NCBI RefSeq assembly: GCF_028716865.1
Contig: NZ_JAQUOY010000012.1
Coordinates: 1 to 64,000 of the forward strand
Length of the DNA: 64,000 bases
Reading direction: 5' to 3'
Source of the DNA: Candidatus Methylomirabilis sp.
Lineage (GTDB): Bacteria; Methylomirabilota; Methylomirabilia; Methylomirabilales; Methylomirabilaceae
In this document: positions 7,599 to 20,953 of the stretch, piece by piece
Numbering within the stretch: position 1 is the stretch's first letter
Layout of the letters: each line of letters starts with the position of its first letter
The notes under the pieces: generated by a model
Databases searched by the model: none
What the model was told of the DNA's origin: nothing
What the model saw: the letters and a program-made list of their open reading frames with translations, nothing else
Made by a program: the position numbers and the translations under genes

Positions 7599-9920
7599 TC
7601 AGAACTTGACGGTTAGGGCGGTATAGAACGTACGTCCCATGCCGGGAACGGCAATGCCCCAAGGTATCGAGTTGAGGCCCATCGTCATACCCTGACCGGT
7701 ATAGGCGCCACCGAGCGGCAAGGAGTAGAACTTATCGAACATGTTCTCGATGCCGAAATCGAGCCGTACCAGCTTCCAGTTGTAGCTGGTACGCAGATTG
7801 GTCAGGATGTAGCCCGCCGTCTTGATTTCGTTGCGCACATCGGCGACGTTGTTCTTGCCCTTCGCTATCACCATCTCGACGCTGCTGTCGAAGCCGCCAA
7901 GCTTGTGTCCCAGTATGAGCTTACCGTTGAGCGGCATGATGTTGTAGAGATCGTCGTCGGTGGTGAGGTTCTTGCCGTTCGTGTAATTGAATAGCCCCGC
8001 GAGGCTGAATTCGCCCAGGCTGTCGGTTTTCGCCAACGGCATATGGCCGGACACATCGATACCATAGAGCCGGGCCGTCTGGTTCACGTACTGGAGAAGG
8101 ACAAACTTGTTTGTGGCGGTATTGTTCGCCGGGCCGCCGCAGATCGCATTCATGCCCGTTCCGCTACCTACACAGCGCTTCGCATCGATGTAGTCGGTGA
8201 CATGGGTGTAGTATGGCGTGACCTTGAACTCCCAATTTCGGTCGACGGCATGCCAGTCGACGGTGGCGCTTAGGGTGTGCGCTTTTTCCGGGTCCAGATC
8301 CAGATTGCCGACATAGCCGTTGCCGTCGCCGACAAAGTTGTTCATGACCATGGCCATCGCATTCGTCGACCAGGCGTACCGCTCATACAGGTTCGGCGAG
8401 CGTGTCTTGTGCGCGTACCCGAATTCGAGACCGAGCGTCGGCAATGGCGCGTAACGGGCGAGCGCAGTTAAATCCCAGTTGTTGTCGGTGCGGTCGTGAT
8501 TGCGGGCATTGAAGGCGTCTGCTGCAGGCTTATAGGCCATCGTATCGTTGTAGCCCTGCACCGGCCCGGTGTCCATCGTCACTCGCTCGTAGCGGGCGCC
8601 CAGCAGCGTCAACCACTGCGGATGTAGGCGCGCCTCCCATTCGGCGAATAGCGCCTTTCGCTCGCGCGTACCGTCGTTGATATTCCTGAATACATTCGGC
8701 GCCATTCCGCTGAACATAACGCCAGGCGGCAAGATGGCGGGGGACGGCGGCCAGAAGTCGTGCAGGCGGTAATACTGATATTCACCACCAACACGGAGGG
8801 TGTGCTGCTTGGCCAGATCGATGTTGGCCTTGACCGCGCCGCCGAGGTTCCTGCTGTCGCTGTTCATCGGCATCCCTGGCGCAACGGGACTGCCCATCAT
8901 CCCTCCATATAAAAACTGTTTGTCGTCGCCGAAATCCATATCGTGTCGGACGGTTTCATGGTAGGCGTGGGCATCCAGCGAGCCCCAGTCGAACTGGCCG
9001 AGATAGCGCAGGTTCTGGCGCCACTGGGTGTTGCTGATAATGTCCATGCGCTGGTTAGGGAAGCCCTGTTCCGGAATATACTGGTACCCCAACTTCAGTT
9101 CGACCAGATGGTTGGCTTTTCTCAGCGCAAAGCCCAGCGTGTGGTTTTCGGCCTTGTACGCGCTGGAGCCGACCTCGTCACCATCAAGAATATTTCCCGG
9201 CTTGTCGACGGCAGCCGGGCCGGCCGCCTTGAAATTTCCGCCCGCCGTGTAGTTGTCGGCATGGACCACCGAGCCGCTGTAGGTCGCGCTGAACATCTCG
9301 GTAGCATAGGTAGCCGAATAATGGCCGCCTCGGGCCTTGTTGTTGCTGCGATAGAAGCCGCCGGCCTCACCCGTGAGCAGGTGGTCCTGACCTGGGGCGG
9401 CAAAGGCCGGTGCGGGAGCATCCAGCAAAATCGTCCCGCCGATGCTGTCGCCGCCGACGCTGACCGGTGTGATGCCGGCGAACACTTTGAGGCTCCCTAC
9501 GTAGCTTGGGTCGACGTAGGACAGCGGCGGAGTCATGTGGTTGGGACAGGCGGAAATCAGGTCCATGCCATCAACCTTGATGCGCAGACGATCGTCTGCT
9601 AGGCCGTGAATGACCGGTAGGCTGGACACGCCGCCACCGCCGTAGAGACTGACGCCGGGGATGTCTCGCAGTAGGCTGGCAGCGTCGCTGGTGGCAGGCG
9701 ACAGGGACTGCACCTTTGTCTCCTCGACTACCGAGGCATTCAGCGGCACAAAGACGTCGTTGAGAGCGGTCGAGCGCACCACCACCTCCTTCAGTGTTGT
9801 CACTTCATCTTTTTTCTTGTCTTCCTCTGCTATTGCCACGGTACCCCATGTGAGCAGCGTAGTCAGCCCCATAAGAGCTGCGGTGTACCTGTGCGTGCGT
9901 CTGCATCCGCGTCGTCTCAT
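7599..9920 (-). CDS. TonB-dependent copper receptor, OprC/NosA type
   Basis: A 773-residue outer-membrane receptor: signal peptide (about 1-31), plug domain (about 45-170) and a 22-strand barrel ending in aromatic F (LTVKF). The plug carries CPNHM (C125 to M129) in the context DGMDLISACPNHM, equivalent to the CxxxM copper site of Pseudomonas OprC, and the extracellular loops are Met-rich (for example YGGMMGSPVAPGMPM). By family, it imports copper using ExbB-ExbD-TonB energy. The ATG at 9920 has AAGGAGG upstream. Its leader and signal-peptide region closely resemble those of the second receptor at 14103. In a methane oxidiser such a receptor would feed copper enzymes, but that link is an inference. 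Confidence 0.85.
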   Translation of the reverse strand: MRRRGCRRTHRYTAALMGLTTLLTWGTVAIAEEDKKKDEVTTLKEVVVRSTALNDVFVPLNASVVEETKVQSLSPATSDAASLLRDIPGVSLYGGGGVSSLPVIHGLADDRLRIKVDGMDLISACPNHMTPPLSYVDPSYVGSLKVFAGITPVSVGGDSIGGTILLDAPAPAFAAPGQDHLLTGEAGGFYRSNNKARGGHYSATYATEMFSATYSGSVVHADNYTAGGNFKAAGPAAVDKPGNILDGDEVGSSAYKAENHTLGFALRKANHLVELKLGYQYIPEQGFPNQRMDIISNTQWRQNLRYLGQFDWGSLDAHAYHETVRHDMDFGDDKQFLYGGMMGSPVAPGMPMNSDSRNLGGAVKANIDLAKQHTLRVGGEYQYYRLHDFWPPSPAILPPGVMFSGMAPNVFRNINDGTRERKALFAEWEARLHPQWLTLLGARYERVTMDTGPVQGYNDTMAYKPAADAFNARNHDRTDNNWDLTALARYAPLPTLGLEFGYAHKTRSPNLYERYAWSTNAMAMVMNNFVGDGNGYVGNLDLDPEKAHTLSATVDWHAVDRNWEFKVTPYYTHVTDYIDAKRCVGSGTGMNAICGGPANNTATNKFVLLQYVNQTARLYGIDVSGHMPLAKTDSLGEFSLAGLFNYTNGKNLTTDDDLYNIMPLNGKLILGHKLGGFDSSVEMVIAKGKNNVADVRNEIKTAGYILTNLRTSYNWKLVRLDFGIENMFDKFYSLPLGGAYTGQGMTMGLNSIPWGIAVPGMGRTFYTALTVKF

Positions 9921-9959: not shown

Positions 9960-10095
9960 TCTACCTGCCCTCCTGACGGGTGAGTCTCGGGACCGCCGGA
10001 TGAGGATGGCGGTCCCGAGAAGACTCATCCGCTTCGAGGGAGGAAGTCCCTGCCATGGCGCATCAGCCCGACCCCGGCAGGGGAGGGTGGGCAAG
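9960..10095 (-). promoter_or_regulatory. Structured leader A of copper-receptor gene
   Basis: About 136 nt between the PepSY gene and the receptor start, close to 90% identical to leader B (14185-14325). On the RNA, CCUGCC (10076-10081) can pair either with a proximal GGCAGG (10049-10054) or a distal GGCAGG (9964-9969); between them stands a long hairpin (9981-10027; 12-bp stem CUCGGGACCGCC plus a 5-bp lower helix). It lacks the conserved core of cobalamin, TPP or other riboswitches I know. I infer a cis-acting RNA switch or attenuator; the ligand is unknown. Confidence 0.65.
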
Positions 10096-10127
10096 TTGCG
10101 GTGCAGTGCCGCCAGTTGGTCCCCTTG

Positions 10128-11663
10128 TTAGAGCCACTTGACCCGCCACCAGCGGATAAGTCCCGTCACCACCAGCGTTATGGCCAGGACCGCAAAGAGA
10201 TCATTCAGCCACTTCCAGTGCTGCCAGAAAATCAGCCCGTCGTGAAGCTGCCTCAGAACGTAGTACCACGGCACGCCATCCTCCACAGGCTGAGTCAGCT
10301 CGATCTGGCCACGAACCTGACCCGACCGATCCGTCATCACCACCGTCTTGCCGTGATGGAGCCATCCGATCTGACCGTCCTCCAGCCGCGTGATGTCGCT
10401 CGTCATATGGGCATGCTTATCCGAGAGCGTGAGCCACCCGGCCCCGTCTTGCGGCTTCATATAATTGTTGATGCCCATCCAGCCGCCGATATAGAGCGAA
10501 TCCCCGAAGCGGCGAAGCCTTCGGGCCGCTGCTATGCGTTCGGCGCCGGCATGCTCCGCCGACCATGTGCGTCCCCCATCCTCAGATGTAAAGAGCCCAA
10601 CCCGAGTTCCGATAGAAAGCTTCTCTGGTTGACCCGGATACCCGATCACTGCCTCAATCCACCCGTCCCACACATTGAGATGATAGACAGGTGGGTAGAA
10701 GATCGAGGGCACCTGCACCCGTCGGAGCCATTCGCCTAACTCCTTAGAGTGTCCAAAGAAAATACCGGTAATGACGAGATAGAGGAGCGGCAGAGCCGCG
10801 TAGAGCCCGATCAACGGGCTATGGAAGCGGAACAGCCAGATGAGCGTCGTGCGTTTGGTCTCGACATGGATCTGACCCCCGTGTCGGCGGCGGTGCCGCC
10901 AGTACTTGGGGAATCCCCAATAGCACACCCCGCTCAGCGCCAGGGCGCACAGACCAAGGCCTGCCAGATCGTTGAGTAGGAGCGAGAGGCCTTCGGCGAA
11001 TAGCCCCCGCCCGACATGCAGGTCGATGATGAGCCGTCGCAAGGACATCTGGTGCGGTAGCGCGTCGTTCGGCGGTGTCTCCAAACGGAGCCAGAGGGGA
11101 TCATCCGGTCTCCCGGTGAGCAGTTGGAATACTCGGCTTCGGTCCGTCACCCCGTACAGTTCCCCATGGCTTGCCCCCGCCGAGAGTGCCGTAATCCTCT
11201 GCGCTTCCATCCCTGCTTTCACAACGGTCTTGCCGCCATCAGCAGACACCCAAATTCCGTTATCCGTACCGATCCAGAGCCGATCCCAACCACGCTCCGG
11301 GTCCGGTTCAACCGCAAAGACCTGGAGATGCCCGTCCTTATCGCCAACCAACTGTGTTCGCTGCCAGCTCTTGGCCCCATCCTCCGTGACCCACAACCCA
11401 CGCGATCCTGCAGCGACCTGATGCATCGGCCGATTCGGATTGACCTGGAAGATCTGAATCACGGTCCGACTAAGGCTTCTAACCGATCCAGGCATAAGAC
11501 GTTCCGGAACAGTCGAAAACCAGATCCACCGCCACTCCTTGTGATCGAGGAGAAAGCCGGTCGCCCCGAGCACGCACAGCCAGACAGCCGAGATCAGGCC
11601 CGCCCATTTATGGAGCTTGAGGAGCGTAATCCTCCGGTACCAGCGCGTATGTGTGCTGAACAT
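10128..11663 (-). CDS. PepSY-associated TM protein with Asp-box (BNR-like) insert
   Basis: A 511-residue inner-membrane protein. Four hydrophobic segments of the PepSY_TM type are visible: about 13-40 (LHKWAGLISAVWL), 230-275, 305-335 and 480-505. Between the first and second segments, and again between the third and fourth, lie Asp-box motifs such as VTEDGAKSW, VSADGGKT and TSEDGGRTW, which mark beta-propeller blades. PepSY_TM proteins often sit next to TonB receptors and are implicated in reducing or handling imported metal. The ATG at 11663 gives a clean N-terminus but no clear ribosome site; an in-frame GTG two codons upstream (11669) is an alternative. It lies 64 bp after the FecA-like receptor, probably in the same transcript. 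Confidence 0.78.
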   Translation of the reverse strand: MFSTHTRWYRRITLLKLHKWAGLISAVWLCVLGATGFLLDHKEWRWIWFSTVPERLMPGSVRSLSRTVIQIFQVNPNRPMHQVAAGSRGLWVTEDGAKSWQRTQLVGDKDGHLQVFAVEPDPERGWDRLWIGTDNGIWVSADGGKTVVKAGMEAQRITALSAGASHGELYGVTDRSRVFQLLTGRPDDPLWLRLETPPNDALPHQMSLRRLIIDLHVGRGLFAEGLSLLLNDLAGLGLCALALSGVCYWGFPKYWRHRRRHGGQIHVETKRTTLIWLFRFHSPLIGLYAALPLLYLVITGIFFGHSKELGEWLRRVQVPSIFYPPVYHLNVWDGWIEAVIGYPGQPEKLSIGTRVGLFTSEDGGRTWSAEHAGAERIAAARRLRRFGDSLYIGGWMGINNYMKPQDGAGWLTLSDKHAHMTSDITRLEDGQIGWLHHGKTVVMTDRSGQVRGQIELTQPVEDGVPWYYVLRQLHDGLIFWQHWKWLNDLFAVLAITLVVTGLIRWWRVKWL

Positions 11664-11727
11664 TGCTGTCACACTTGTGTTGACATCTACTCGCGCCGCG
11701 CCGAGAAGCCTCGTTCTCGGCACGGCG

Positions 11728-14103
11728 CTAGAACCTGAGCTTGAGGCCGGCGAAGTAAGATCGCGGCTGGCCGGCGAAAAATGCTTGCTTTGACGTCGCC
11801 AGATTGGCCGGCGTATCGCTGAGCGCATCGGCCACGACGTTGGCGCTTGCGATGTAAGTCGCGTCGAACAGATTCTGAATCTCAAAGAAGGCCGACAGCG
11901 ATCGAACGAAGGGGATCGTGACTTCCCGGTCGTAATGGAGATTCAGGTTGACCAGTTGGTAGGGCAACGTCTTCAGCGTATTGCTGTTGTTCACGTAGAA
12001 ATCGTCCAGCCAGTTGACCTCGATCCAGCCGCCCACCCCACGCCACCACTCACTGTAATGGCTGGTGTCATACGCGAGTCTCGCGTTCAGGATATGGCGC
12101 TCAACGCCCGGGATCTTATTACCGCTCCGATCGAAACTCTTGCACGTTGTACTGGAGCAGATATTCTCCGTAAACTCGGTGTAGATGTGGTCGTTGAAGG
12201 TATATGAGGTTGACACCTTTGCTCCCGCGAAGGGCCGCCAAGCCAACTCCGCCTCGATCCCGCGATGCTCGGCGTTGGGGGCGTTGCTGGTAAAGGACGA
12301 CAACCCCGCGCCGGGCGACTGTGTGATGAATTCGTTGAAAGAGAACTCATAGTAGCCCGTCAGGCTTGCCGTAACAGTCGGCAGGGGTCGGACATCGATC
12401 CCCAGCTCTACCCCGACATTGCGCTGTGGCTTCAAACCGGTATTGTTCCCCGCGAGCCCTGTCGTGGCTGTGGTCAGATTGCCGATCCCAGGGATGCCGT
12501 AGGCGGTTGCCACCCGCCCGCGGAACTGGAGGTCCGGGTTCACGGAATAGATCACTCCCGCCTCCGGCGCGACACTCACGAAGTCGCGACGCACATCGAC
12601 ATTGGTCAGCGGGGCGGTCGTGCTGTTGCGGGATCGGACTTCGGCCCGAATCTCCGAGCCCTCCACGCCCACTCCGAGGTACCCGGTCCATCGCGGCGAG
12701 AACTGAACCTCCTCCCGCACTCGGCCCCCAAGATTGCGGATGTGGCCACGGGTATTGGCCTGCAAGTCGCCGCGGCTGCCATGGCCGTCGGCCAGATTGA
12801 AGAAGGTGCTCGATTCCTGCTCTATGCGATTAAAAAAGAAGCCGGCATAGTGTTTCGCCGCAAGGCCCAACAGGCTTCCTTCCCTGGTGATGTCGGCATA
12901 GAAATTAAAGCTCGGATTCTCGTTATCCCCTATCGTTCCGAAGGTCTGGTTAATGTCTTTATAGTCGTAACTCCCCAGAAGGCGGAACCCGGTCTGCGCG
13001 TCCAGTTGCTGTTCGTATCGGGCACCGACAATCGTGCGATTATCGTTTCTCCCCTGGTCTGCCTGCTGGGCGGTGACAAATCCCTTGCCGGTCACAAAGG
13101 TGCGCCCTGCGCCCCATGGGTTCGCTCGAAATTCCGCCAGTGTCAGGCGGTTGGGCACCTTAGTGTCAACGTCATTATTGATGAACTTCAGCGTAATCGA
13201 TCGCTTGTCATCGGGGGTATAGGTGGCCACCAGGTTTTCAGTGGTGGTGTTGAATTTGCTGTGAGCCAAGAAGCCGTCACCCCGGACGTGGCTTCCAAAA
13301 AGGGAGTACTCGAACTTATCGAGCTGATCGCCGATATGGACGTAATGGTTCGAATAACCGTAACTGCCACCCTCATTCCCCACCTCAACGCCTCGAATGT
13401 CGCGCCCTTTCCGTGTGCGGAAATTGATCACGCCCCCGAGGGCGTAGTTGTCATAGAGTGCCGATGAAGGTCCTCGCAGGACATCGATCCCCTCATAGGC
13501 ATGGGGATCGTTTAGGTCTGTGCGCGCGAGGCCGTCCGGTTGGGTAGTTGGAAACCAGTCGTCAAAGACCTTAATGTTCCGAATGCCGAAGGTGGTTTTG
13601 GCGCCGGACCCTCGAATAGAGATTCCCACATCACGGGGCCCGTTGCCTTCCTTGAGGAAAACCCCTGGGGTGACCTCGATCAGTTCCTTGACGCTGAAGG
13701 CTCGCGCGTGCTCGATCTCCTCCTGCTCCACGGTACTGACGGCCCGGCCAACCGGCTTCTCTTCCATCCGTGTGGCAAGTACCTTGACCGGTTCCAGGAC
13801 CAACGGTTCGCCTGGAGTCGGAGGGGCCACCGGCTGACTCGCAGTGGCGGCAGAGGCAGGCGAGGCGGCTCTAGCCTTCTCCTCCGGATCAAGCGCCTGA
13901 AGCTCCTTCTCGATCTGCTCCAACTGGCGCAGCAGTTCCTGGCGTCGCTGCACCTTCTGAGCGACCTGCTTGGGATCCGGGGTAGTCTGGAGTTGAGCCC
14001 AGACGACCCTTTCACCCGCAAAGGCGCCCCATGCCAGGAGCGTGATCAGCCCCACAAGGGTTGCGGTACACGTGCGCGTACACTTGCATCCGCGTCGTCC
14101 CAT
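11728..14103 (-). CDS. TonB-dependent receptor, FecA-like
   Basis: A 791-residue outer-membrane receptor. A signal peptide very like that of the copper receptor (MGRRGCKCTRTCTATLVGL) is followed by a coiled-coil stretch (about 40-70, RRQELLRQLEQIEKELQAL), a plug with VLRGPSSALYDNYALGGVINF (split here as VLRGPSSALYDN / ALGGVINF) and a barrel ending KLRF. The plug resembles ferric-citrate/siderophore and haem receptors, so an iron chelate is the likely cargo, although another metal chelate is possible given the copper genes around it. The ATG at 14103 has GGAG 6 nt upstream; earlier in-frame starts run into the leader. tonB-exbD-exbB lie immediately upstream. Confidence 0.83.
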   Translation of the reverse strand: MGRRGCKCTRTCTATLVGLITLLAWGAFAGERVVWAQLQTTPDPKQVAQKVQRRQELLRQLEQIEKELQALDPEEKARAASPASAATASQPVAPPTPGEPLVLEPVKVLATRMEEKPVGRAVSTVEQEEIEHARAFSVKELIEVTPGVFLKEGNGPRDVGISIRGSGAKTTFGIRNIKVFDDWFPTTQPDGLARTDLNDPHAYEGIDVLRGPSSALYDNYALGGVINFRTRKGRDIRGVEVGNEGGSYGYSNHYVHIGDQLDKFEYSLFGSHVRGDGFLAHSKFNTTTENLVATYTPDDKRSITLKFINNDVDTKVPNRLTLAEFRANPWGAGRTFVTGKGFVTAQQADQGRNDNRTIVGARYEQQLDAQTGFRLLGSYDYKDINQTFGTIGDNENPSFNFYADITREGSLLGLAAKHYAGFFFNRIEQESSTFFNLADGHGSRGDLQANTRGHIRNLGGRVREEVQFSPRWTGYLGVGVEGSEIRAEVRSRNSTTAPLTNVDVRRDFVSVAPEAGVIYSVNPDLQFRGRVATAYGIPGIGNLTTATTGLAGNNTGLKPQRNVGVELGIDVRPLPTVTASLTGYYEFSFNEFITQSPGAGLSSFTSNAPNAEHRGIEAELAWRPFAGAKVSTSYTFNDHIYTEFTENICSSTTCKSFDRSGNKIPGVERHILNARLAYDTSHYSEWWRGVGGWIEVNWLDDFYVNNSNTLKTLPYQLVNLNLHYDREVTIPFVRSLSAFFEIQNLFDATYIASANVVADALSDTPANLATSKQAFFAGQPRSYFAGLKLRF

Positions 14104-14184
14104 CACTGTCTCCTTCCTTAGAGAATAGGGAATTAGGCTGAAGACTTTTAGATATAGCCTCTTCCTTCCTTCAGTCTTCGGTCT

Positions 14185-14325
14185 ATCTACCTGCCTTCCT
14201 GATGCGGTGAGTCTCGGGACCGCCGGATAAGGATGGCGGTCCCGAGAAGGCTCATCCGCTTCGAGGGAGGAAGTTCCTGCCATGGCACATTAACCCAACC
14301 TCGGCAGGGGAGGGTGGGCTAGGTG
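14185..14325 (-). promoter_or_regulatory. Structured leader B of FecA-like receptor gene
   Basis: Second copy of the leader seen at 9960-10095. The same features are conserved: CCUGCC (14303-14308), proximal GGCAGG (14276-14281), distal GGCAGG (14190-14195) and the central hairpin (14208-14254). The differences fall mainly in loops and single-stranded parts, while the two alternative partners and the 12-bp CUCGGGACCGCC stem are unchanged. It lies between the tonB stop (14352) and the receptor start (14103). Confidence 0.65.
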
Positions 14326-14351: not shown

Positions 14352-15251
14352 TCACCATCTCTTTAATCTGAATTCGACCGGCAGCACGGCCCAGGCGGCG
14401 ACGACCCGATGGTCTCGTCTTGCCGGTTCGAAGCGCCATCGTCTGATTGCCTGGACTGCCGCGTGGTCGAGGTCTGCGTAACCGGACGACCGCTCAATCG
14501 TGACATTGGCCACACCGCCATCGGCTTGCACCAGGAATTTGAGGAGGGCCGTCCCCTCGATGCCGGCCCGGCGGGCCGACTCCGGATAGCGGGGGGTAAC
14601 CTGGTAGCCGCCCTTGAGCAGTCTGCCATCGATTAGGCCGCCATTGTCGGTGCCTGCCCTCCCCCCACCAGCCGCCTTGTAGGCGGGGGGATAGCCATCT
14701 GTCCGAGCAGACGCCACGATGGCAACTCCCGCTGCAACGGCGCCGCGGTCGGTCTGCGCTGTTCCGCCGACAGTGTGGTGACCGGTCAACGTCTGTGTAT
14801 CCTGGCCCCCAGGGACGACCCGTCCGGAGTCGTCTTCTGCCACAACCGCTGGAAGTGCTCGCGTCGATGCGGCGTCGGCTTTCTGCTCTACAACAGCCTC
14901 TGGCGGCAGTAGCGGTATTGGTGGCTGTTCGTGTGGCACTGACGACTCATGTGACGGCTTCTGTACCGCCTGCGGCGTTTCGATGCCGAGATCGGATGGA
15001 GAGACAGTGGGATTGTCGCGCGGCGAGGGGACGCCAGGAGTTCGGAGCCGGTCCTTCAAGATCCGCCCAGTGCCCGGCATGGATTGCTGAGACGCCGGCA
15101 CATCAGTCTCTCCGACTGTGATGACCTCAATGGGGATCCGTACCTCCAGGGGGCTGGAGAGGCCCAGACCCGACACGCCAGAGACAAGCGCCAGCAATGA
15201 GAGGTGGATCAAGCCGGACGCCACTGCGGGGCCTTTCAGCGAATGATTCAC
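14352..15251 (-). CDS. tonB: TonB energy-transducer protein
   Basis: A 299-residue protein with one N-terminal membrane anchor (about 10-32), a long Pro/Gln-rich periplasmic linker and a C-terminal TonB domain from about residue 210 (VTPRYPESARRAGIEGTALL, then AIRRWRFEPA). It carries inner-membrane proton-motive energy to outer-membrane receptors. The start is GTG at 15251, overlapping the exbD stop (GTGA) with GAGG upstream, so translation is coupled. The gene sits directly upstream of the FecA-like receptor and probably serves both receptors in this cluster. Confidence 0.92.
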   Translation of the reverse strand: MNHSLKGPAVASGLIHLSLLALVSGVSGLGLSSPLEVRIPIEVITVGETDVPASQQSMPGTGRILKDRLRTPGVPSPRDNPTVSPSDLGIETPQAVQKPSHESSVPHEQPPIPLLPPEAVVEQKADAASTRALPAVVAEDDSGRVVPGGQDTQTLTGHHTVGGTAQTDRGAVAAGVAIVASARTDGYPPAYKAAGGGRAGTDNGGLIDGRLLKGGYQVTPRYPESARRAGIEGTALLKFLVQADGGVANVTIERSSGYADLDHAAVQAIRRWRFEPARRDHRVVAAWAVLPVEFRLKRW

Positions 15252-15667
15252 TCCTCACGCCTCATCTGATTCGGCTTTACGGCGATCGCCAGCTTGTTCG
15301 AACCGGCCCACCTGGCTACGTCCATCGCCTCCACAACACGTCCGTGCGATACGGCCTCATCCGCGCTGAGGATTACCGTGAGTTCCGGGTTCACCGTGAG
15401 CAACCCCTTCAACCGCTCCCGAAGCTGATCGACCGAAATAGGTTGCTTGTCCAGATAGAGCTGTCCATCTTTGGTGAGCGTGACCGCCGCATGGTCGCGC
15501 ATACCCTGTTGCCCCGTCCCCGCCTTGGGCAGATCGATCGGCATCCCCCTGTAGACTGCCATCGATAGCGAGGCCATCATGAAGAAGACCAGCAGGAAGA
15601 AGATCGTGTCGATCAGTGGGATGATCTCGATGCGGGCCTTCCGTGGCGGGCGGCGCAGCAGCCTCAT
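15248..15667 (-). CDS. exbD: ExbD/TolR biopolymer transport protein
   Basis: A 139-residue inner-membrane protein with one TM helix (about 16-38) that contains the essential Asp in PLIDTIFFLLVFFM, followed by a periplasmic domain. With ExbB it forms the proton channel that powers TonB. Start and stop overlap its neighbours by 4 bp (ATGA with exbB, GTGA with tonB), showing a tightly coupled operon. Confidence 0.93.
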   Translation of the reverse strand: MRLLRRPPRKARIEIIPLIDTIFFLLVFFMMASLSMAVYRGMPIDLPKAGTGQQGMRDHAAVTLTKDGQLYLDKQPISVDQLRERLKGLLTVNPELTVILSADEAVSHGRVVEAMDVARWAGSNKLAIAVKPNQMRREE

Positions 15668-16266
15668 GGACGGACTTCCTTCAATGCGAGTTCCAGTCGA
15701 GAGCCGTAGCGTTCGATGTCGCCCATGATCCGCTCGACCCGCGCAGCGAAGTAGTTGTAGGGGACCAGGGTCGCAATAGCGATCCCGAGGCCTGTCGCGG
15801 TCGCGATGAGGGCTTCAGCGACGCCCCCGGTGATGGCGTGGGGTTGGTTGATGCCGCCGGAGGCCATGACCCCAAAGCTACTGATCATCCCTGTAACGGT
15901 GCCGAGGAGGCCCAACAGGGGCGACAGGGTGATGACCGTGTCGAGCAGCGGCAGATATCGCCGCATGTGGGTCAGCTCTTCATGGGCGGCGGCCTCCATC
16001 GCCAGCGTCGGGGCAGGGTTCCGATGGCGGATCCCGGCTGCGAGGACCCGCGCCACCGGAGAGCGGGAGAGTTCGCCGAACTTGCGCGCATCCTCCCAGT
16101 TGCCGGCTGCCGCCAGCGTGAGCAACTGCTCTATCTCCCCGGATGGGCGCAGGCGCCACCAAAATAGCCCCCGTTCGATGACCACGGCCAGCGAGGTGAT
16201 CGAACAGCAGAGGAGGGGGATCATGACGGGCCCCCCTTTGATAAGTAACGCAATGAGTGCGGACAT
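15664..16266 (-). CDS. exbB: ExbB/MotA/TolQ proton-channel protein
   Basis: A 200-residue polytopic membrane protein with three hydrophobic segments (about 3-28, 105-130 and 150-175) and the family signature SPLLGLLGTVTGMISSF. It assembles with ExbD to energise TonB. I prefer the ATG at 16266, which has AAGGAGG about 6 nt upstream, over the in-frame GTG/ATG at 16302. First gene of exbB-exbD-tonB. Confidence 0.92.
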   Translation of the reverse strand: MSALIALLIKGGPVMIPLLCCSITSLAVVIERGLFWWRLRPSGEIEQLLTLAAAGNWEDARKFGELSRSPVARVLAAGIRHRNPAPTLAMEAAAHEELTHMRRYLPLLDTVITLSPLLGLLGTVTGMISSFGVMASGGINQPHAITGGVAEALIATATGLGIAIATLVPYNYFAARVERIMGDIERYGSRLELALKEVRP

Positions 16267-16318
16267 CTCTACCTCCTTCACGCGCGTGCGCAGCTTGAGC
16301 ATCTTCCCGCTCCTCAGA

Positions 16319-16501: not shown

Positions 16502-16834
16502 TTACGCGAAGGCGAGCAGGGGTGGGGAGCGGCCGGTCAGCCTGATGGGGGAGATCTGAGGGTAGTGCTGAGGTAGCGGTAGAAAGGCGAGCAGAACAGT
16601 CACAGCTAACGGTAGGAGTATCCTTGACGACGGCACATGGGAGGCAACTGTCTTGTGTGCCCAGGCACAGACAGAGACGGGGTGAGTATCTGCTTGGCCT
16701 TGGATGTGGGTATTGTGAGGGTGGACCAGGCACAGGATGAGGAACGCATTGACCAGCAGATAGAGACAGAGCGCTGATAGCGCAAGCGGCTTGAGATGCC
16801 GAGATTCGCGGGATGATCTATTCAAAAGCGCCAC
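16502..16834 (-). CDS. Small membrane protein, paralogue of 20457-20789
   Basis: A 110-residue protein with one clear TM segment (about 16-38, LALSALCLYLLVNAFLILCL), a His/Cys-rich stretch (HPHNTHIQGQ, then VCAWAHKTVASHVPS), a second hydrophobic segment and the tail LTGRSPPLLAFA. The paralogue at 20457 shares all these blocks and is exactly the same length when GTG 16834 and ATG 20789 are taken as starts; GGAG precedes the GTG by 8 nt. I do not recognise the family. Conserved Cys and His in a copper gene neighbourhood suggest metal binding, but this is only inferred. Confidence 0.65.
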   Translation of the reverse strand: MALLNRSSRESRHLKPLALSALCLYLLVNAFLILCLVHPHNTHIQGQADTHPVSVCAWAHKTVASHVPSSRILLPLAVTVLLAFLPLPQHYPQISPIRLTGRSPPLLAFA

Positions 16835-16941
16835 TGGTGAAGCTCCGTCTTCTTCGATGGACGACACTGAGCAGGAACATAGTTTACGACTCTTTCTACT
16901 TCTTCCGGACGAGCATGTCTACAGATGCCTGCTCACTGTTG

Positions 16942-17365: not shown

Positions 17366-17668
17366 TTAGGCAGTAAAAGAAGGAGGGGCACGTCCATGGA
17401 CAGGAGCGAGACAGGCGACAGAAGGACCACTAAAGACGACTCTTGGAACGATCTCTAAGAGTAGAGCAGGTGTCTCGATGGCAACGGACTCGACGGCGGT
17501 GCAAGCCAGGTGTGCGGAGGCCGAGGCCACCGCACACTGGGTAGTCTGGTTGAGACGACCGAGGTTGTGCATCGAGTGGAGCCCGGCCGCGAACGCGAAG
17601 AGGAAAAGGATCAGGACAAGGACCAACGCTTCGACGGACTGCGCGCGCGGCCGCTTCAGTGTCAACAC
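17366..17668 (-). CDS. Small membrane or secreted protein downstream of copD
   Basis: A 100-residue protein starting at GTG 17668, 4 bp after the copD stop, with AGGTAGG just upstream. Residues 10-32 form a TM or signal segment (ALVLVLILFLFAFAAGLHSM), followed by a Met/His/Cys-containing stretch (HSMHNLGRLNQTTQCAV, then ASAHLACTAVESV). I do not recognise the family; comparable short proteins with a HSxHxL...C motif accompany metal genes. Tight coupling to copD argues for a role in the same process. Confidence 0.6.
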   Translation of the reverse strand: MLTLKRPRAQSVEALVLVLILFLFAFAAGLHSMHNLGRLNQTTQCAVASASAHLACTAVESVAIETPALLLEIVPRVVFSGPSVACLAPVHGRAPPSFTA

Positions 17669-17672
17669 GCAC

Positions 17673-18833
17673 CTACCTGTGCATTGATGGCGGCATGGCC
17701 GTCGGCGTGTCGTGCGCCGGCAGATGGTCGCCATGAAGTTCTTGGGACTTGAGATGTTCGAGATGGCGCGCATGGCGAGCCGGCATGAGTTGAGTGAGGA
17801 GGGCTGAACAGGCCAACGTCGCAACAACGATCATCCACTCCAGTCGGACGAATCGAGAGAACTGGGATTGAGGCATACTGGTGAACCGACGGATGATCCT
17901 GAAGATCAGCCCATCGGCCCTGCCGGACCTGTGCATCAGCAGGGCGAGAAAGTAATACCGGTTGACGGCCGCAATCATCAAGATGCCGCCCACAAGCGCG
18001 AGCTTAACCAGGAGGGTCCAGCCGTACGCAGCCTCGACGAGAGCCGAGGCGGAGCCCACCTGCAACCAGGAGTTGTAGAGCCCGGTCGCCAGAAAGACGG
18101 CGACGCAACTCGCCGCCATCTTGGAGAATGGCCTCGCGATCGAAGAGAGGCCGTGCACCGTATCTTGCATACCTGGAGTTGCGAGGGAACGCTTGAGCAC
18201 GAACCCGAACGTGAAGAGGCCGCCGATCCAGATCGAGACTGCCAGGAGATGGAACCAGCCGATCAGCACCGGAACCGTCATATCGCCCCAGTCAGCCGCG
18301 TGGCCTGAAAGGGTTGTCGTCAGCGCAACGAGGAACGTCGCCAAGAAGGAAGCCCTGATAAACCATGGGCTTGCGGTGCCCCCCAGCAGCCTCAGCCACC
18401 AAGTCATGCCCAGCAGCCCTATCCGGCCGAGCCGCGCGATCCAGAGTAATCGCGGGGGTGTGGCTATCCCCTGCAGCCTCAGCCACCAGGCCATGCCCAG
18501 CAGCCCAAGCAGGCCGATCCGCACGGTCCAGATAGTCCCATAGTGTGTTTTTCGAAGGACCAACGGAAGCGCGACGCCCAATGTGGCCAGACCCCCGCCG
18601 CTCATCATCAACGTCCTCAGGATCAGGTCAGCAAGGCTCGTCAGTACCACGAGCCCGAGCGAGACGAGTTCTACTCGGCGAAGGTGTCCCTCGATGATCT
18701 GGTAATCGTGGCGTGATAACAGGCTTGGTGGGAGGATCAGAGACTGAAACGCTAACCCGCCGACGAGCGTCATGAGGCCCATGAACTCCAGCCAGCGGAT
18801 GAAGATATGAAGAAGGGCGTGCGGGCCGGTCAT
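17673..18833 (-). CDS. copD: CopD copper-resistance/uptake membrane protein
   Basis: A 386-residue polytopic inner-membrane protein with a CopD domain (the stretch from about 195 to 305 with GWFHLLAVSIWIGGLFTFG is characteristic). CopD works with periplasmic CopC in copper transfer across the inner membrane. Its ATG overlaps the copC stop (ATGA). A 29-codon in-frame tandem duplication is visible: LLGMAWWLRLQG and LLGMTWWLRLLG, encoded 87 bp apart around 18387 and 18474. A C-terminal His-rich tail (PARHARHLEHL, HGDHLPAHD) may bind metal. Confidence 0.87.
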   Translation of the reverse strand: MTGPHALLHIFIRWLEFMGLMTLVGGLAFQSLILPPSLLSRHDYQIIEGHLRRVELVSLGLVVLTSLADLILRTLMMSGGGLATLGVALPLVLRKTHYGTIWTVRIGLLGLLGMAWWLRLQGIATPPRLLWIARLGRIGLLGMTWWLRLLGGTASPWFIRASFLATFLVALTTTLSGHAADWGDMTVPVLIGWFHLLAVSIWIGGLFTFGFVLKRSLATPGMQDTVHGLSSIARPFSKMAASCVAVFLATGLYNSWLQVGSASALVEAAYGWTLLVKLALVGGILMIAAVNRYYFLALLMHRSGRADGLIFRIIRRFTSMPQSQFSRFVRLEWMIVVATLACSALLTQLMPARHARHLEHLKSQELHGDHLPAHDTPTAMPPSMHR

Positions 18834-19243
18834 GGGCCGGATCCGATGGTGAACGGGAAGTCACCCTCGGTGTGGTGGCCATCTCGGGCGATGACGCTCC
18901 AGAATACCCGATACCTGCCAGGCGGCAAGGGTGGGAGACTCACCTCGAGAATGGTGGTGTCGGAAGGGTTGACCCGCCCGTCCGCTTTATCGACTCGTTC
19001 TTTGTTACCGTTCATCACCGTGATGGTACTGAATATTGGCTCGATGGCGCCGTCAAACCAGATCCTGACCTGGGCTGGCGACTGCTTCACCATCCACCCT
19101 ACCCGTGGTTCGGAGTGGTCGGGGAAGGCATGGCCCCAGGCCGAGCTGACCATCAGGAGCAACCCTACTGCGAGAGCGGTAGAGCTGCTCCAGCGCCCTG
19201 GCAGCCGGTTATCGTGGCAGCGTTTGTGGTCCCAGTACGCCAT
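18830..19243 (-). CDS. copC: CopC periplasmic copper-binding protein
   Basis: A 137-residue secreted protein. After a signal peptide (about 1-37) the predicted mature N-terminus is His (HAFPDHSEPRVG), and near the end is DGHH (D121, H123), together matching the Cu(II) site of CopC (N-terminal His, Asp and His). CopC carries periplasmic copper and hands it to CopD, whose start overlaps the copC stop. The start at 19243 lies within the end of the upstream gene (35-bp overlap) and lacks a clear ribosome site, so coupling to the upstream gene is likely. Confidence 0.88.
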   Translation of the reverse strand: MAYWDHKRCHDNRLPGRWSSSTALAVGLLLMVSSAWGHAFPDHSEPRVGWMVKQSPAQVRIWFDGAIEPIFSTITVMNGNKERVDKADGRVNPSDTTILEVSLPPLPPGRYRVFWSVIARDGHHTEGDFPFTIGSGP

Positions 19244-20456: not shown

Positions 20457-20789
20457 TCACGCGAGAGAAAATAGGGGCGGGGATCGACCGGTAAGTTTGA
20501 TGATCTGGAATTGGGAAGAGCGCGGCAGGAGCGGTATCGGGATGAAGAGAGTCGCCGCAACTACAGGCAGAATCAATCCGGTTGATGGCGCATGAGGCGC
20601 AACGGTCTTATGGACCCACATACAGATCGAGGCGAGATTACTCTTGACCTGACCTTGTGAGTGCGTATTGTGGGGCTGGATGAGGCAGTGGGTGAGAAAG
20701 GCGTTGAGGAGCAGGTAAAAGCCGAAAGACGCAGCCGCAAAAGATCTAAGGCGCAGGCGAATCAAGGATCTTTGATGTAATCTTTGCAT
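20457..20789 (-). CDS. Small membrane protein, paralogue of 16502-16834
   Basis: A 110-residue protein sharing with its paralogue the blocks YLLLNAFLTHCLIQPHNTH, MWVHKTVAPHAPSTG, ILP and LTGRSPPLFSLA. The same Cys, the HNTH motif and the HKTVAxHxPS motif are conserved, hinting at functional or metal-binding residues. ATG 20789 gives exactly the paralogue's length, which I used to choose it; no strong ribosome site is seen. It follows the RND efflux genes by 165 bp. Function unknown. Confidence 0.65.
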   Translation of the reverse strand: MQRLHQRSLIRLRLRSFAAASFGFYLLLNAFLTHCLIQPHNTHSQGQVKSNLASICMWVHKTVAPHAPSTGLILPVVAATLFIPIPLLPRSSQFQIIKLTGRSPPLFSLA

Positions 20790-20953
20790 GATAGGGATGT
20801 GCACCCTGCTTCGCTTACCGGCTTTGGCATGTTCCTCAACTAATTGTAGGCTATCGAAGCCGGATTACTGCTGTCAAGTGAAAAAGAATGAACTACCCCG
20901 CGGTAAGCCGCGTGGAATGAACCTCCAGTGGATTCAACAAATATCTTGGAGGA

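Follow-up and report, generated by a model that had tools for sequence, protein, structure and literature searches.

An undescribed pseudoknotted RNA stands in front of copper-import genes of methane-oxidising Methylomirabilis, and it is probably a copper-linked control element. We found nine copies of this element in 6 of the 15 Methylomirabilis genomes searched, two of them in the window (the whole stretch of 64,000 nucleotides that was analysed), where each copy precedes a gene for a TonB-dependent receptor. The particulate methane monooxygenase needs copper, so that copper limits methane oxidation, and a literature search returned no description of copper-uptake control in NC10 bacteria. 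The reading that we favour, for which we consider the chances evenly balanced, is that the element is a cis-acting structured RNA tuning the adjacent copper-uptake genes after transcription start, according to copper status. The element, an undescribed RNA family linked with OprC-type receptors, is also a small cloneable object with which the part of RNA in copper sensing can be addressed.

Two copies in the leaders of TonB-dependent receptor genes

Copy a of the element (9968..10092, minus strand) lies ahead of an OprC-type copper receptor gene, 35 nt past the stop of a gene for a PepSY_TM protein (10128) and 47 nt from the receptor ATG (9920). Copy b (14194..14319, minus strand) lies ahead of the gene for a second TonB-dependent receptor (receptor 2), 32 nt past the tonB stop (14352) and 90 nt from the receptor ATG (14103). 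The sequence-only reading had described two minus-strand segments, about 90% identical, in front of receptors that differ, and both statements were borne out: pairwise comparison gave 90% identity over the element, with ~125 nt in each copy, and the two receptors are indeed of different types. As the genome holds just these two copies, each preceding a receptor gene, and genomes of the genus carry at most two, a mobile or REP-type repeat was ruled out. Both copies sit within one co-directional gene run; no promoter match was found near the window elements, and neither of them contains a terminator-like site (a GC hairpin followed by a U run), on which ground an intrinsic terminator or attenuator was rejected.

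Compared with the OprC leaders of sister genomes, the window copies show 69-77% identity, which is below their mutual 90%, and they therefore look homogenised or recently copied. The signal-peptide coding ends of the two receptors are also alike (window 9860-9920 and 14040-14103, minus strand), although the receptors differ, so that a duplication or gene conversion would have spanned both the leader and the signal peptide.

Fold, conservation and distribution of the element

We read the fold from a hand alignment of the nine copies that rebuilds each sequence exactly; the model-derived alignment A3 misplaces PK by one base in certain rows, and its PK counts therefore understate this helix. The predicted architecture, which has good but not conclusive support, is an H-type pseudoknot (P1 plus PK) followed by a long P2-P3-P4 hairpin, together a conserved unit of ~125 nt. 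The same architecture was read in 9/9 copies, with P1, PK and P4 possible in all of them. P1 pairs GCCCRCCC with GGGUcGGGC around one bulged base, with isolated mismatches, and is present in every copy; PK pairs (UU)CCUGCC of the P1 loop with GGCAGG(AA) located 3' of P1, also in 9/9 copies, with a register shift in G027. Loop L3 is 11 nt long in all nine, each of its positions varying in at least one copy, and the loop lengths are feasible for an H-type pseudoknot. More specifically, the following arm is made of P2, in which UUCCUCCC faces a GGAGG-like strand and which is the weakest helix, not formed in G027; of P3, GCGGaUGAG with CUCACCGC; and of P4, a 12-bp (12-13-bp) inverted repeat that is kept in all copies and gives a very stable hairpin. 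The CUCGAAGCGGAUGAG stretch of the element is conserved in sequence.

On the minus strand of copy a, the P1 hairpin spans 10066..10092 (10092-10085 with 10074-10066, one bulged C), its loop (10083-10076) contains CCCUGCC, and PK (10048..10082) joins 10082-10076 CCCUGCC to 10054-10048 GGCAGGG, L3 being 10065-10055 (11 nt). In the P2-P3-P4 arm (9968..10045), P2 pairs 10045-10038 UUCCUCCC with 9973-9968 GGAGGG, P3 pairs 10032-10023 with 9985-9978, and P4 pairs 10019-10008 with 9997-9986. The P1 hairpin of copy b, likewise on the minus strand, spans 14293..14319 (14319-14312 with 14302-14293) and its loop, 14308-14303 CCUGCC, forms PK (14276..14308) with 14281-14276 GGCAGG; the P2/P3/P4 hairpin (14194..14272) follows, with P4 at 14246-14235 and 14224-14213.

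Several changes within the helices support the fold. P4 of G027 contains two doubly changed (compensatory) pairs, and G021a, G034a and G027 have G-U replacements in this helix; P3 of G000a shows a C-G to U-A change, and the outer pair of PK alternates between U-A, U-G and C-G, with C-A and C-U as exceptions. In the model-derived alignment, paired cells reached 88.5% compared to at most 48% for slid-partner controls, and 5 pairs were changed on both sides compared to at most 3 in the slid controls. Against dinucleotide shuffles, folding of the window copies gave z -4.5 and -6.2, and in a separate shuffle run each of the nine copies beat its shuffles (z -2.9 to -5.2). The structure is thus conserved beyond composition, as would be expected of a structured cis-regulatory RNA; covariation among the nine sequences of one genus is modest, mismatches are present in P2 and in the closing pairs of P3, and most pairs are invariant, so that we regard the fold as conserved and consistent, short of proof. 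The earlier remark that loops vary while stems stay was weak from the two window copies alone, and its real support comes from this wider family.

The sequence-only reading had further proposed mutually exclusive helices, CCUGCC pairing with either a proximal or a distal GGCAGG and a long hairpin standing between the two partners. All of these parts were found in both window copies, the distal GGCAGG lying at 9969-9964 in copy a and at 14195-14190 in copy b (minus strand), but this distal partner is limited to the two copies of this genome. Its site reads GGAGGAUCG, GGGAGGCG, GGGAAGAU and so on in other copies, and it is absent from every non-window copy that reaches that point (G034a ends before it). 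Since the distal partner is missing in homologues, which leaves no two conserved competing partners, and since the proximal pairing, kept in 9/9 copies, coexists with P1 as a pseudoknot, we dropped the proximal/distal switch.

A set of 95 genomes of the phylum, comprising 15 Methylomirabilis and 80 others, was searched with blastn and the covariance model R1. A more sensitive search of the genus added none to the nine copies, and in the 80 other genomes R1 and blastn returned no copy but weak matches, the best at 26.4 bits compared to 116-154 for true copies. An exact-pattern scan of GTDB r220 recovered two Methylomirabilota contigs and one Thermoleophilia contig, the latter scoring 11.6 bits with R1 and taken as a chance match. 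The homologues in NC10 beside copper-type genes for which the earlier reading had looked to a covariance search were in this way found, in Methylomirabilis. Against the Rfam 15 covariance models the element had no match even at E<=5, cobalamin and metal riboswitches included, in agreement with the earlier statement of no match to familiar riboswitch cores (cobalamin among them), and a known riboswitch was accordingly rejected. By these searches, the element is a genus-restricted, previously undescribed RNA that is absent from Rfam.

Identity between copies of the element is 59-98%. The 150 nt upstream show 9-50% identity in all pairs except G034b/G033, with a shuffled baseline of 27%, and the OprC genes, over their first 300 nt, show 59-99%, the OprC-linked copies of the element being about equally conserved. 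As it is conserved like the start of the OprC gene while its upstream flanks are near random, selection acts on the element itself, and it is very likely a functional conserved RNA.

Downstream genes and the GRSPP short ORFs

The element lies on the sense strand, 10-93 nt ahead of a gene. The next gene encodes an OprC-type receptor in six of the nine copies, receptor 2 in one and an HMA/MerP/CopZ-like protein in another, and the last copy (G034a) is followed by the contig end; of the eight next genes that are visible, seven belong to copper types judged by their sequence and the remaining one, receptor 2, judged by operon context. That the element keeps its position and strand relative to genes of related function suggests a cis-regulatory role, which would most likely be exerted in cis on the next gene, and control of the neighbouring gene by the element seems likely to us. 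Together with the lack of an Rfam match, these downstream genes support the earlier proposal of an unassigned structured RNA at metal-uptake genes, the metal being copper.

The OprC-type TonB-dependent copper receptor of the window (7599..9920, minus strand) has Pseudomonas aeruginosa OprC as its best PDB match (E 5e-19), and its plug motif CPNHM aligns with CPNRM of OprC, the CxxxM half of the OprC copper site (PMC8610252); an HxM also occurs in the barrel sequence. OprC-type receptors behind the six copies share 77-81% protein identity with the window protein. The G021b copy precedes the gene for a MerP/CopZ-like HMA-domain periplasmic protein, whose match is below curated cut-offs. Receptor 2 (11728..14103, minus strand) is YncD/PqqU-like by sequence, these being its closest PDB relatives, and CrtA-like by operon context: a GRSPP ORF is followed by exbB (15664-16302), exbD (15248-15667) and tonB (14352-15251), which together span 14352..16302 (minus strand), then by the receptor and by the PepSY_TM protein that lies between both receptors (10128..11630, minus strand). 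A like arrangement was reported for CrtA copper transporters (PMC12914433), and from this exb/tonB/PepSY context we assign receptor 2 a putative copper role.

An OprC-type gene is present in 7 of the 15 genomes of the genus, with the element ahead of it in 6, and none of the 8 genomes lacking such a gene contains an intact element. The element is dispensable, since the OprC gene of G026, the exception, and close relatives of receptor 2 in G022, G024 and G025 stand without an intact copy. In the receptor 2 leaders of G022 and G024 (L074, L076), GGGTCGG(G/C)CTGATTCTCACAGG follows directly after the tonB stop (GGGTCGGGCTGATTCTCACAGG in G022); this stretch resembles the middle of the element and is a probable deletion remnant. 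Just downstream of the OprC-type receptor, a secreted conserved protein of ~290 aa (FPHANIRSKDTLDAYTGRNYQ) is encoded in L034 (11764-12633) and L036 (11086-12009), for which searches gave no Pfam match (L034 copy) and no NCBIfam match (L036 copy).

These loci also carry short ORFs with a GRSPP motif. The window contains a CutF/CruR-like short ORF ending GRSPPLLAFA (16502..16867, minus strand), a candidate copper-sensing arrest peptide, and a second GRSPP ORF (20457..20804, minus strand) ahead of a 349-aa gene, copC (18830-19243) and copD (17673-18833). We counted 27 copies in 13/15 genomes of the genus and none in the 80 other genomes of the phylum. Their products of ~110 aa share a single hydrophobic segment at the N-terminal end, the motifs PHNxH and CxWxHK and, close to the C-terminus, an invariant GRSPP; changes are most frequent at third codon positions, so that the ORFs evolve as coding sequence. 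They match no Pfam or NCBIfam model, DUF2946 included, and contain no CXXC/CxxxC, having C-x-W-x-H in place; on both grounds we rejected them as DUF2946/CruR members, and they appear to form an undescribed family resembling CruR/DUF2946 and CutF uORFs. Further GRSPP ORFs lie in L033 (6952-7284), L034 (6866-7204, 8317-8667), L035 (8204-8536), L036 (7609-7977), L037 (10262-10594) and L078 (9561-9944, 13657-13989).

Other small features recur around them. A hairpin, GCCTGAGCC-loop-GGCTCAGG, is found ~50-90 nt past most GRSPP stops (for example in L034 after 8667, in L036 after 7977 and in the window below 16502) and is possibly part of the uORF mechanism. A second type of short ORF, with a Cys/His-containing middle and an arrest-like GRAPP end, is present in the window (17366-17827, minus strand), where it overlaps the end of copD, in L032 (3973-4275) and in L078 (10488-10793). 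In L034 (8891-9178) and L078 (9039-9422), a conserved small ORF (DYFGEALRILDND...EHLAALWGLVVGLT) separates the GRSPP ORF from the OprC-type gene.

Candidate modes of action

In the reading that we favour, the element, placed in a leader or intercistronic region, would set the expression of the next gene after transcription has begun, and receptors within one long cop-exb-tonB-receptor operon would thereby be tuned separately. Among possible readouts we rank access to the ribosome-binding site first: the pyrimidine-rich UUCCUCCC might be locked in P2 under one condition and under the other be released to cover the Shine-Dalgarno region, the pseudoknot deciding which state holds. As signals we consider copper, a protein that depends on copper, or ribosome arrest on the upstream GRSPP ORF. 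The analysis establishes the conservation of the element, its position and strand, and a consistent fold; regulation, signal and mode of action we infer, and for copper status as the signal we see equal chances on either side. Masking of the ribosome-binding site as the readout is, taken by itself, rather unlikely. The UUCCUCCC strand of P2 is complementary to the Shine-Dalgarno sequence, and in G025/G033/G034 it can form 13 pairs with the ribosome-binding region of the receptor, at about -20 kcal/mol; in the remaining copies the pairing was no better than in control leaders, and a conserved anti-Shine-Dalgarno helix, strong in this lineage only, is kept as no more than a hypothesis.

The upstream ORFs suggest a different division of labour, in which a CutF/CruR-like nascent chain, the GRSPP ORF, is the copper sensor and the element could be its downstream effector only, a structure that stalled ribosomes or Rho would open or close; we judge this possible, if on balance improbable. 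Consistent with it are the number, genus-wide spread and coding pattern of the ORFs, and the fact that one of them precedes the element in all of the loci read that carry it. CruR and CutF are themselves copper-sensing and exert post-transcriptional control of TonB transporter or cuproenzyme genes (PMC9426467, PMC9973294), and RSPP is listed among the arrest-type motifs searched in PMC10987492. In most other genomes, however, the GRSPP stop lies 80 to about 580 nt ahead of the element, and in the window the GRSPP ORF is 2.2 and 6.4 kb upstream of the copies, with several genes in between; this is too far for a stalled ribosome to open the element directly, so that such a mechanism fails for the window copies. 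G022, G024 and G026, moreover, have GRSPP ORFs without an intact element, and the lack of CXXC/CxxxC and of any Pfam or NCBIfam match also speaks against this sensor.

The nearest known systems share some features with the element and differ in others. The CruR (DUF2946) uORF of Bordetella pertussis controls bfrG/crtA-PepSY_TM (PMC9426467, PMC12914433), and post-transcriptional copper control there heads TBDT/PepSY_TM operons, OprC-type receptors included, with exbBD and tonB in some CruR-type operons. In the CruR system, however, sensing is by a nascent peptide with CXXC and RAPP, with Rho termination, and no structured pseudoknot family is described there, whereas the ORFs of Methylomirabilis carry CxWxH and RSPP, and each target has its own RNA element in front. 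For CutF-cutO of Rhodobacter capsulatus (PMC9973294), an mRNA structure masks the Shine-Dalgarno sequence between a PP-ending exported short protein and the copper gene; this is a simple stem-loop near the ORF, whereas the Methylomirabilis element is larger and combines a pseudoknot and a hairpin. It stands at distances of 80 nt to 6.4 kb from the ORF and does not include the Shine-Dalgarno sequence, and strong anti-Shine-Dalgarno pairing is limited to G025/G033/G034. If the element does work with the GRSPP ORFs, the CruR/CutF paradigm would be extended to a new phylum and to a new RNA architecture.

The element may instead have no sensing role and serve, between cistrons, in RNA processing or stability, as a site or barrier for nucleases by which the receptor messages are separated and stabilised. 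The place of the window copies, 32-35 nt past a stop codon in one co-directional gene run, and the very stable P4 hairpin would agree with this, but a plain stability hairpin needs no conserved pseudoknot, constant-length loop or conserved CUCGAAGCGGAUGAG, copies in other genomes follow small ORFs and not structural genes of a long operon, and confinement to copper genes is not predicted, which makes this explanation rather doubtful.

A riboswitch that directly binds a metal or metabolite (copper or a copper-linked metabolite) is unlikely. Its compact pseudoknot-based fold, the copper-type genes downstream and the lack of an Rfam match would suit such a role, but most validated riboswitch classes are widespread and the element is confined to one genus; the ligand side is speculative, and in the literature searched we found no paper pairing 'Methylomirabilis' and 'riboswitch', nor one using the phrase 'copper riboswitch'. 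Like the cobalamin riboswitch (RF00174), the element is a structured leader with a pseudoknot before an outer-membrane receptor; it differs in escaping that model at E<=5 and in preceding copper-type and not corrinoid genes. H-type pseudoknot leaders are known in preQ1, SAM-II and the S15 leader, and here too the P1 loop pairs with a downstream strand, but the element matches none of them in Rfam and an extra P2-P3-P4 arm follows. The boldest form of the riboswitch reading, a copper-sensing riboswitch whose pseudoknotted aptamer would bind copper or a copper chelate and control outer-membrane copper importers of nitrite-dependent methane oxidisers, beside a nascent-peptide sensor in the same transcript, is decidedly improbable. 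A direct response to copper would represent a new riboswitch ligand class.

Operator DNA, with the P4 inverted repeat as a putative site for a copper-responsive transcription factor, is very improbable: the 12-13-bp repeat is conserved in all copies, but complementarity extends beyond P4 to P1 and PK, the arms contain G-U replacements, no promoter match is nearby, and the window copies lie inside an operon shortly after a stop codon. A leader peptide or N-terminal coding extension is scarcely credible and was rejected on reading frames, for although copy b does not interrupt the frame of receptor 2 (851-aa ORF) and a 12-aa ...GRxxLxRSG peptide could be translated from five copies, indels between copies are not multiples of three, and the start codon and frame of the 12-aa peptide are not kept in G034b, G033, G025 and G021b. 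The 851-aa ORF starts at 14283 (window 11728-14283, minus strand), and automatic annotation may place the copy b RNA element inside the receptor 2 coding sequence.
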